Notes under the pieces: generated by a model | What the model was told of the DNA's origin: nothing | The model's database searches: none | What the model saw: only the letters and a program-made list of their open reading frames with translations | Position numbers and translations under genes: made by a program | In this document: piece by piece, positions 148 to 2,265 of the stretch | Position numbering within the stretch: position 1 is the first letter of the stretch | Layout: each line of letters starts with the position of its first letter | NCBI GenBank assembly: GCA_036000645.1 | Contig: DASYVA010000082.1 | Coordinates: 1 to 32,157 of the forward strand | Length of the DNA: 32,157 nt | DNA from: Candidatus Methylomirabilis sp. | GTDB lineage: Bacteria > Methylomirabilota > Methylomirabilia > Methylomirabilales > JACPAU01 | Direction of reading: 5' to 3'

Positions 148-1164
148 CTAGAAGTACCGCCCCACCGCCTTGGCCACCCCCTGCAGGTCGGACATGAGCT
201 GGGCGAAGCGGGCCGGCTTCAAAGACTGAACGCCGTCCGAGAGGGCCTCCTCCGGCTTCGGGTGCACCTCGATCATCAGGCCGTCCGCCCCCACCGCCAC
301 CGCCGCCTTCGCCAGGGCCGGCACGTACTCCCAGTGGCCGGTGCCGTGACTCGGGTCCACGATGATGGGGAGGTGGGTCAGCTTCTGAAGGACCGGGACG
401 GCGTTCAGGTCCAGGGTGAACCGGGTAGCAGTCTCGAAGGTTCGGATGCCCCGCTCGCAGAGGATCACGTCGTAGTTGCCGGCCGAGAGGACGTACTCGG
501 CCGACATCAGGTACTCCTGGATGGTGGTGGACATCCCGCGCTTCAGGAGCACCGGCTTGCGGATCTCCCCCACCTCCTTCAGTAGGGCGAAGTTCTGAAC
601 GTTGCGGGCCCCGATCTGGATGATGTCGGCGTAGCGGGCCACCAGGTCGAGGTCCCGCGGGTTCAGGACCTCGGTGACGACCTGGAGCCCGGTCGCCTCC
701 CGGGCGGCGGCCAGGAGCTTCAGGCCCTCCTCCGCCAGCCCCTGGAACGCGTAGGGGGAGGTCCTGGGCTTGAACGCCCCGCCCCGCAGGATCGTTGCCC
801 CGGCCTCCCGGACGGCCCGGGCCACCGTGAGGAGCTGCTCTTCGGACTCCACGGAGCAGGGTCCGGCCATGACGTGCAGCCGGTCCCCGCCGAGCTCCAG
901 CGCTCCGACCCGGACCACGGTCCGGGCCGGTCGGGTCTCCCGGCTCGCCAGCTTGTACGGCTGCAGGATGGGGACGACCTTCTCCACGCCGGCCAGCGCC
1001 TCGAGGGCCTGGAGCCTCGCCTTGCCCCGCTCGTCCCCCACGGCCGCCACCACGCTGCGCGTCGTCCCGCGGATGACATGGGGGTGATAGCCGAGGCCCT
1101 CCACCCGGGCGATGACCTCCCGGAGGTCCTCCTCCCGCGCCCCCGGTTTCATCACGATGACCAT
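148..1164 (-). CDS. aroF: 3-deoxy-7-phosphoheptulonate (DAHP) synthase, type I-beta
   Basis: Condenses phosphoenolpyruvate and erythrose 4-phosphate to DAHP, the first step of the shikimate pathway in the cytoplasm. The 338-residue protein has a ferredoxin-like regulatory domain (about 1-70) followed by the TIM-barrel catalytic domain, the arrangement and length of the Thermotoga maritima enzyme, where the N-terminal domain mediates Phe/Tyr feedback. Visible motifs are GPCSVES (C103, metal ligand), [13 protein letters not shown] (R127, K132), [24 protein letters not shown] (H273), IEVHP (E299) and LSDG (D310), so the metal site Cys-His-Glu-Asp is complete. The start ATG at 1162-1164 is chosen because GGAAGGAG lies eight bases upstream; the frame stays open further but nothing there resembles the family. 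It is preceded by a transcription attenuator with Trp and Phe control codons (1191-1369), so both feedback inhibition and attenuation are expected. Confidence 0.96.
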
Positions 1165-1190: not shown

Positions 1191-1224
1191 AAAAAGCCAA
1201 AAGCCACGGCACCGGTCCGTGGCC
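1191..1224 (-). terminator. Intrinsic terminator of the aroF attenuator
   Basis: On the minus strand GGCCACGG (1217-1224) pairs with CCGTGGC (1203-1209) across a seven-base loop, and the stem is followed at once by TTTTGGCTTTTT (1202-1191). It lies between the aroF promoter and the aroF start codon, so it can only act on the leader transcript. Confidence 0.8.
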
Positions 1225-1329
1225 TCCAGAAACACGAAAGCCACGGGAGTCAGCGTCTGCTCCCGTGGCTGCTCTGCGGTCCCCGGACGGCCTAGCGGCG
1301 GCCGGTGCCCGCCCCCACGGGGCAGACGC
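1191..1329 (-). promoter_or_regulatory. Transcription attenuator in the aroF leader RNA
   Basis: Five arms can be read on the minus strand. A is GCGTCTGCCCCGTGG (1329-1315), inside the leader peptide just after its control codons. B is CCACGGGAGCAGACGC (1268-1253). C is CTCCCGTGGCT (1249-1239). D is GGCCACGG (1224-1217). E is CCGTGGC (1209-1203), followed by the T tract. A:B is 7 + 8 base pairs with one bulged A. B:C is an 11-base-pair hairpin with a ten-base loop. C:D is seven pairs plus a wobble, and D:E is the terminator. A ribosome stalled on the Trp codons leaves A free, favouring A:B and then C:D, which is readthrough. Fluent translation favours B:C and then D:E, which is termination. 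Pairings are read directly; the switching is inferred from the classical attenuation model. Confidence 0.85.
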
Positions 1330-1369
1330 CGCTAAAGAAGAACCGCCAGGCCCACCGGGTTCTCTGCAT
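1292..1369 (-). CDS. aroF leader peptide (attenuation control peptide)
   Basis: A 25-codon reading frame lies between the aroF promoter and the attenuator hairpins. It starts with ATG (1367-1369), has AGGAGG 11 bases upstream (1381-1386) and ends with TAG (1292-1294). Codons 6 to 12 read Trp-Ala-Trp-Arg-Phe-Phe-Phe (1354-1334), a density of rare aromatic codons characteristic of leader peptides of aromatic amino acid genes. There is no Tyr codon. The peptide itself probably has no function; ribosome position on the WAW and FFF codons senses charged tRNA-Trp and tRNA-Phe. Arm A of the attenuator begins at codon 14, immediately after the control region. The frame is too short for routine gene calling, which is why it is easily missed. 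Confidence 0.87.
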
Positions 1370-1399
1370 AATCGGCCGCGCCTCCTGCGCGTGCCCGTT

Positions 1400-1428
1400 T
1401 TTGTAATCCCCTTTGATCCGCGTGTCAA
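1400..1428 (-). promoter_or_regulatory. Sigma-70 promoter of the aroF leader
   Basis: On the minus strand a perfect TTGACA (1423-1428), a 17-base spacer and TACAAA (1400-1405) predict transcription from about 1392. This places the leader peptide start about 24 bases into the transcript, and aroF about 230 bases in. Confidence 0.82.
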
Positions 1429-1509: not shown

Positions 1510-2265
1510 ATGTCCGGGCATTCCAAGTGGCACGGGATCAAGCACAAGAAGGCCAAGGCGGACGCCGCCCGCGGGCGGATCTTCACCCGCCTGATCCGGG
1601 AGATCACCATCGCGGCCAAGACGGGGGGTGGGGATCCGGACGGCAACCCCCGCCTCCGGACGGCGGTCCAGGCGGCGAAGGCGGCCAACATGCCCGCCGA
1701 CAACATCGAGCGGGCCATCAAGAAGGGGACCGGGGAGCTGCCGGGGGTGACCTACGAGGAGCTGACCTACGAAGGGTACGGCCCCGGGGGCGTGGCGGTG
1801 ATGGTGGTGGTCACGACCGACAACAAGAACCGGACCGCGCCGGAGATCCGGAAGATCTTCGCGAAGCACGGCGGCAACCTGGGGGAGTCGGGCTGCGTCG
1901 GTTGGATGTTCGAGAAGAAGGGGGTCATCCAGGTGGAGGCCAAAGGGGTGGACGAGGAGGCGCTCCTCAGCGCCGCCCTGGAGGCCGGGGCGGAGGACAT
2001 GCGGCAGGAGGAGGGCACCTTCGAGATCCTCACCGCCCCCCGGGAGAAGGAGTTCGAGGCGGTCCGGGCAGCCGTCTCCCGGGCGAAGGTCGCCATCGCC
2101 AGCGCCGAGATCACCATGGTCCCCCAGAGCACCGTGAGGCTGGACGGCAAGGTGGCGGAGCAGATGCTCCGGCTCATGGAGGAGCTGGAGGACCACGACG
2201 ACGTCCAGAGCGTCTACGCCAACTTCGACATCCCCGAATCCGTCATGGCCGCCGTCACCGGCTGA
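1510..2265 (+). CDS. yebC: YebC/PmpR family protein
   Basis: A 251-residue cytoplasmic protein of the YebC/TACO1 family. Members have been described as DNA-binding regulators, and more recently as translation factors that relieve ribosome stalling at proline-rich stretches. The N-terminus [20 protein letters not shown] is diagnostic, followed by FTRLIREI, the [16 protein letters not shown] segment and [13 protein letters not shown]. Length is normal for the family. The start ATG has GGGGAGG about eight bases upstream. It heads a run with ruvC, ruvA and ruvB, the usual bacterial arrangement, which is why older literature suspected a link to RuvABC. Its C-terminus is intact and ruvC begins 31 bases downstream. 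Confidence 0.96.

Follow-up and report, generated by a model that had tools for sequence, protein, structure and literature searches.

Does the short region ahead of aroF in Candidatus Methylomirabilis sp. couple the enzyme that opens the shikimate pathway to the supply of aromatic amino acids? The window (the whole 32,157-nucleotide stretch of contig DASYVA010000082.1 that was analysed) carries aroF on the minus strand, encoding a type I-beta (Thermotoga-type) DAHP synthase with an N-terminal regulatory domain. AroF is a full-length match to T. maritima 1rzm/3pg9, and its nearest named relative is that of candidate division NC10 bacterium CSP1-5. The region between aroF and the divergent yebC (1510-2265, plus strand) had been described in an earlier note as a Trp/Phe leader-peptide attenuator. 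There is a high probability that it is a ribosome-mediated (leader-peptide) transcription attenuator of aroF, a claim upheld by its anatomy and by 42 homologous leaders, and it very likely turns the gene on when aromatic amino acids run short. This reading is based on the features of the sequence, on their conservation and compensatory pairing, and on where and in which orientation they lie; from these we infer the stalling and its kinetics, the direction of the response and the aromatic amino acids that matter in this species. The features are as follows, with the evidence for each in brackets.

1423-1428, minus strand: -35 hexamer TTGACA (sequence; TTGAC present in 41 of the 42 homologous leaders)
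1400-1405, minus strand: -10-like hexamer TACAAA, at a spacing of 17 nt from the -35 hexamer (sequence; relatives have a TA-rich -10 at similar spacing)
1381-1386, minus strand: Shine-Dalgarno sequence AGGAGG of the leader frame (sequence)
1292-1369, minus strand: leader ORF of 25 codons, ATG at 1369 to TAG at 1292 (homologous aromatic-run frames in relatives)
1334-1354, minus strand: control codons Trp6, Trp8 and Phe10-12, codons 6-12 reading W A W R F F F (aromatic enrichment in the coding frame only)
1342-1359, minus strand: arm 1, which holds both Trp codons and pairs with arm 2 over 16 bp (minimum-energy fold of the window RNA)
1315-1330, minus strand: arm A, antiterminator strand within the leader frame, with a GUCUGCC core (core near-invariant or covarying in 42 leaders)
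1307-1316, minus strand: arm A', local hairpin partner of arm A (minimum-energy fold)
1282-1299, minus strand: arm 2, partner of arm 1, overlapping the leader stop codon (minimum-energy fold)
1251-1270, minus strand: arm B, partner of A (antiterminator) or C (pairing, alignment of relatives)
1239-1249, minus strand: arm C, partner of B or D (pairing, alignment of relatives)
1229-1238, minus strand: T-rich stretch after B:C, TTTCGTGTTT (sequence; stronger T-tracts here in families f2, f3 and f5)
1212-1224, minus strand: arm D, partner of C or E (pairing, alignment of relatives)
1202-1211, minus strand: arm E, forming the 3′ side of the D:E terminator (terminator scan, pairing, alignment)
1191-1202, minus strand: T-rich tract of the D:E terminator, TTTTGGCTTTTT (terminator scan match)
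148-1164, minus strand: aroF, ATG at 1164 (NF006421 and TIGR01361 above cut-off; T. maritima match)

Promoter, ribosome-binding site and short frame all lie upstream of aroF, and the terminator scan places an intrinsic terminator, D:E with its T tract, before the structural gene. Arm A starts 3 nt past the last Phe codon and the leader stop codon lies 33 nt past the A core; the window's own leader has no Tyr codons. The promoter, AGGAGG, 25-codon frame and arms A to E are all where the earlier note had put them. Its inventory of five arms stands, with two stems overlooked, the 16-bp 1:2 stem and A:A' within the frame. Another pair of hexamers from the promoter scan, TTGGCA/GAGAAT at 1461-1433, was dropped; relatives keep TTGACA/TACAAA instead.

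Leader RNA made from this promoter would carry the 25-codon frame with its aromatic control codons. When aromatic aminoacyl-tRNA is scarce, the ribosome would stall in the run and leave arm A, just behind it, uncovered. A could then pair with B as B leaves the polymerase, and B would be lost to C. The freed C would pair with D, neither terminator (B:C or D:E) would form and aroF would be transcribed. With charged aromatic tRNAs, the ribosome would pass A to the stop codon and A would be masked or locally folded (A:A', 1:2). A being unavailable, B:C and D:E would form and transcription would end near 1191. D:E would thus act as a second terminator, governed through C:D. The choice between A:B and B:C amounts to the classical antiterminator/terminator choice with an extra terminator, D:E, attached. 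The scheme had been presented as unlike the classical one, a view that does not hold up, as A, B and C would act like trp segments 2, 3 and 4 and B:C in the window is terminator-like itself, via the T-rich stretch behind it.

The leader folds better than its dinucleotide shuffles (z -3.6), with duplex energies of -36.2 kcal/mol for A:B, -24.5 for B:C, -19.6 for C:D and -21.4 for D:E. The unconstrained minimum-energy fold forms 1:2 (the 16-bp stem that includes the Trp codons), A:A', B:C and D:E together. Equilibrium folding of the untranslated window RNA gives 1.00 for both B:C and D:E, contradicting the proposal that lack of translation favours readthrough. Some relatives in family f7 behave in the opposite way, favouring A:B without a ribosome, so that there is no general rule and the default state without translation probably differs among species. 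When the ribosome is placed on the first Trp codon of the full leader, D:E drops to 0.13 and equilibrium still favours B:C; readthrough would therefore need kinetic trapping of A:B. A ribosome mask at the last Phe codon covers part of A, and A:B stands at 0.28 by the end of B, which may fit a graded response. Because the stop codon lies so far past the core, A would stay uncovered by a ribosome paused at it, and folding under a mask placed on that codon even favours A:B. Termination in the window would then come about through A:A' and 1:2 refolding after release, or through timing. The 13 f7-type leaders whose stop codon comes no more than 21 nt beyond the point where the core begins behave differently from the window in this respect: a stop-codon mask abolishes A:B, and when the ribosome is placed early in the aromatic run or midway along it, A:B has usually formed by the time B is complete. 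Equilibrium folding with ribosome masks does not reproduce the switch in every leader and, as it ignores transcription order, is used as support only.

Comparison within the phylum provides the main test of the pairings. A covariance model built from 11 leaders of one order, with only B:C and D:E as structure, was run on 95 genomes; its family-f7 matches, which are out-of-sample, mostly lie directly before aroF. In all, 42 distinct aroF leaders were aligned with MAFFT, which is blind to pairing. TTGAC lies upstream in all but one of them (2.4 expected). Standard pairs make up 95.5% of A:B, 98.5% of B:C, 96.8% of C:D and 97.8% of D:E, and pairing falls to about 29-57% when one strand is slid by 1-3 columns. 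Double changes occur in 23 cells of A:B (6.4 in shuffles), 13 of B:C (4.8) and 10 of D:E (2.8). Examples are the A:B column pairs 17/94 (CG to GC in 13 sequences) and 21/90 (UA-UG-CG), the B:C pair 82/108 (AU to GC in 13) and the D:E pair 135/153 (GC to AU). Mutually exclusive antiterminator and terminator pairings are thus kept by compensatory change in A:B, B:C and D:E. No double compensatory pair occurs in C:D among the 42 leaders, where one position varies as UA/UG/CG and the sequence is tied to B:C and D:E. The expectation that related aroF upstream regions would keep the control codons and show compensation in all four pairings is therefore borne out for an aromatic run and for three pairings, and not for C:D.

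Family f7 offers the best test of the predicted five-arm relay. Its B:C has no T-tract behind it, leaving D:E as the only possible terminator, and A:B, B:C, C:D and D:E are all kept; C:D is conserved where B:C cannot terminate. This conservation, with the masked folding of the 13 leaders, backs the proposed chain in which a stall in the run would expose A, A:B would free C and C:D would disrupt D:E. The arrangement of terminators varies in other families. T-rich stretches stand behind both B:C and D:E in the window and f3, a T-tract follows B:C only in f2, f8 and f10, and some relatives have A/B/C alone with D:E absent.

The eight control positions across the phylum are F in 39%, Y in 18% and W in 9%. 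The coding frame holds on average 5.26 aromatic residues per eight codons, compared with 1.1 in the other two frames; both codons of Phe and both of Tyr are in use. The run stands before a DAHP synthase and its codons specify W, F and Y, the end products of the pathway. The label of a Trp/Phe sensor is too narrow, as the codon usage points to a sensor that is aromatic in general across the phylum. Strong hairpins with T-tracts would look much the same if the region were a constitutive tandem terminator or an mRNA-stabilising structure carrying a chance short frame, and one f3 genome (L018) does have a promoter and a terminator there but neither the leader frame nor A/B/C. The confinement of the aromatic run to the coding frame (5.3 vs 1.1) makes this very unlikely, as do the compensatory changes in A:B, which spans about 60 nt, and the aromatic-run frames that precede aroF in many phyla.

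The peptide behind the run, GVCP, is kept in Methylomirabilota. Such conservation would be expected if the leader peptide itself arrested the ribosome by nascent-chain sensing, as TnaC does for Trp, with no sensing of tRNA at the level of codons. However, the peptide changes where the arm is altered or is translated in a different frame. Where A is changed to GUCCGCC, B is changed to GGGCGGACC and EVRP takes the place of GVCP; in f8 and f10 (L183, L176) run and arm stand in a different relative frame and the arm reads RRLP; and in Geobacterales the same arm reads RPSA. The GUCUGCC arm is thus read in three frames across groups, which means that the arm is conserved as RNA and the run as codons. 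The run is also variable in length, order and W/F/Y composition, and a TnaC-type leader answers to excess, the wrong sense for a biosynthetic gene. Nascent-chain arrest is very unlikely on these grounds, and codon-level sensing by a translating ribosome is preferred.

T-boxes on aromatic genes occur in Firmicutes, and terminator/antiterminator alternatives are common to all classes of this kind, so a T-box or metabolite riboswitch could in principle sense aromatic amino acids directly, the short frame being incidental. Rfam gave nothing relevant at the gathering threshold, either for the window or for 14 related loci, and for the leader, with the limit relaxed to an E-value of 1, it gave nothing of relevance beyond a chance microRNA match. 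No aptamer-like conserved element lies outside A-E. Together with the conserved aromatic frame, the lack of an Rfam family at threshold renders direct sensing very improbable and leaves the leader-peptide attenuator as the reading adopted here.

Homologous leaders are found in the window's order in families f1, f2, f3 and f5 and in one f6 genome. Most f6 genomes lack the leader, and in them aroF follows immediately on a gene that by eye is ATP-synthase epsilon-like. The presence of the leader in related genomes, on which the earlier claim depended, is thus confirmed by the 42 leaders, with most f6 genomes and L018 as exceptions. L018, from one f3 genome, keeps the promoter and a terminator hairpin, but its leader frame and arms A-C are gone, either by natural deletion or by assembly error. 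At another locus (L171/L028, G010:C61 48.8-50.3 kb) some 1.35 kb separates the leader from aroF, apparently an insertion that by eye resembles an IS110-type transposase gene on the opposite strand. Several f7/f9 genomes carry tandem aroF copies, mostly behind one leader (G072:C35, G078:C19, G080:C321, G084:C34, G086:C124, G093:C357). The aroF leader of L202 (G066:C182) keeps its arms and has nearly lost the aromatic run (MRSRAACTGCYVSCFPSREVCPRALTD).

Similar leaders occur outside the phylum. When 80 aroF loci picked by AroF similarity alone were scanned with the covariance model, nearly all matches lay directly upstream of aroF and on its strand, in Syntrophales (L042, L044, L052, L069), Geobacterales/Desulfuromonadales and Planctomycetes. 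A model-independent scan for a short frame with at least five W/F/Y in nine codons was applied to 78 aroF upstream regions, nearly all from outside the phylum. Such a frame is present in 44 of them, compared with 3.9 expected from dinucleotide shuffles and with 7 of 336 random stretches of the same loci. Several outside leaders keep the A/B/C layout with other sequences (L052 GATCTGTCCA/TGGGCAGATC, L063 GCGGGACTTC/GAAGTCCTGC); in leaders of this type B lies in a hairpin that is followed by T's.

The covariance models also match other operons in the same genomes. In the window's genome a Val-codon leader, MRAISLTVGRVVVGVTEGVCPWAGGPRV (VVVGV...GVCP type), precedes malate synthase (G000:C21:44728-44877, L147:4029-4178), and a further copy ends near a contig edge (G000:C233, L148). 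VVVGV-type leaders stand before a small Cys-rich protein (CxCG..CxxCG..CCPxC) in L149 (2096-2235), L157, L158, L161, L162, L169, L170, L155 and L167, with isocitrate lyase, putative hydro-lyase PRK05463, oxoprolinase-like genes or a LivK-like transporter downstream. An Ile/Val-run leader (IIVVV) ending in IIVVVGFSGICPPGGGR precedes acyl-CoA dehydrogenase in L154, L156, L159, L160 and L163; this gene is probably catabolic, and the sense of the response may be reversed there. In L150-L153 a leader ending in RSVVVAVVRACPRAGGV (VVVAVV), with weak A:B, precedes a sigma-54-type regulator with an NAD-binding-like N-terminus, and in L150 a crotonyl-CoA carboxylase/reductase gene lies about 2 kb beyond the regulator. 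A Gly-rich leader (LGIGVGSGRGVCPRAGGT) is found directly before a glyoxylate-type aminotransferase (L164:2987-3109). In family f7, a Leu/Ile leader ending in LGLILLALPGLPGASAK and having the same arms precedes pyruvate phosphate dikinase (PPDK; L190, L192, L193, L208, L210-L224), which is followed in L192 and L193 by an acetolactate-synthase-like gene.

Synonymous variation (GTA/GTG/GTC) at the Val codons of these leaders leaves Val itself unchanged. Many of the non-aroF leaders show clear A:B pairing, and in some it is weak or absent: a shuffle test, which has low power for the GC-rich PPDK rows, gave p of 0.05 or lower in 14 of 32, with A:B absent or weak in L150-L153. Since these results are uneven, the claim of a modular family falls short of certainty. 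We lean slightly towards the view that the A/B/C unit built around the GUCUGCC core, which D/E often accompanies, is a modular attenuator that has been re-deployed in any of three frames with interchangeable control-codon cassettes. These would be aromatic for aroF in several phyla; Leu/Ile for PPDK; Val, Ile or Ala for malate synthase, isocitrate lyase with hydro-lyase, acyl-CoA dehydrogenase and the sigma-54-type regulator; and Gly for the aminotransferase. If so, Methylomirabilota would possess a leader-peptide regulon reaching central carbon metabolism, and copies with swapped codons would let regulons of uncultured bacteria be read from sequence. As for aroF itself, leader-peptide control of the shikimate-pathway entry enzyme would be widespread among I-beta DAHP synthases and would extend to groups with few descriptions of such control (Methylomirabilota, Planctomycetes, Geobacterales, Syntrophales). 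The system is suited to testing both the five-arm relay and the integration of several amino acids by one codon run.

The E. coli trp and pheA leaders are ribosome-mediated attenuators with control codons. The leader described here resembles them in its predicted stall-dependent choice between an antiterminator (2:3, here A:B) and a terminator (3:4, here B:C). It differs in that A lies inside the leader frame, D:E is coupled via C:D and several aromatic amino acids serve as control codons; the 16-bp counterpart of the trp-type 1:2 hairpin is known from the window alone. Leader control of DAHP synthases has precedents. In Corynebacterium glutamicum, aroR is described as a Phe-Tyr-Phe leader peptide on aroF, whose transcription is reported to go up on Phe limitation (Neshat et al. 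2014, cited in PMC11802643; also PMC4046766). It shares with the present system a leader peptide ahead of DAHP synthase, but belongs to another phylum and is described with Phe-Tyr-Phe and no Trp, a distinction drawn at the level of the published description. The predicted motif uORFC-13-1, reported upstream of aroF from Acholeplasma and environmental sequences only, likewise combines a terminator with a short frame that holds one or more Phe codons ahead of aroF (PMC8632094). In contrast, its description there mentions at least one Phe codon and no alternative-pairing relay. Attenuation has been hypothesized for E. coli aroF-tyrA (cited in PMC8632094 and PMC2659441) and proposed for Vibrio aroA-I-alpha-Y > tyrA (PMC1173090). 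E. coli aroF and Vibrio aroA-I-alpha are I-alpha enzymes of gamma-Proteobacteria, whereas the window's enzyme is I-beta. A 2010 survey gives leader peptides as known in Proteobacteria and Actinobacteria and adds Firmicutes (PMC2965389). No Rfam family covers the present leader, and no earlier leader attenuator on a Thermotoga-type (I-beta) enzyme was found in the searchable literature, which leaves most subscription papers outside. The suggestion that such a leader is without precedent thus survives for the I-beta enzyme and not for DAHP synthases at large, given C. glutamicum and Acholeplasma. Judged against these systems, what appears to be new is the distribution, the all-aromatic sensor, the predicted five-arm relay and the apparent re-use of the switch ahead of other operons with Val, Leu or Gly codons.
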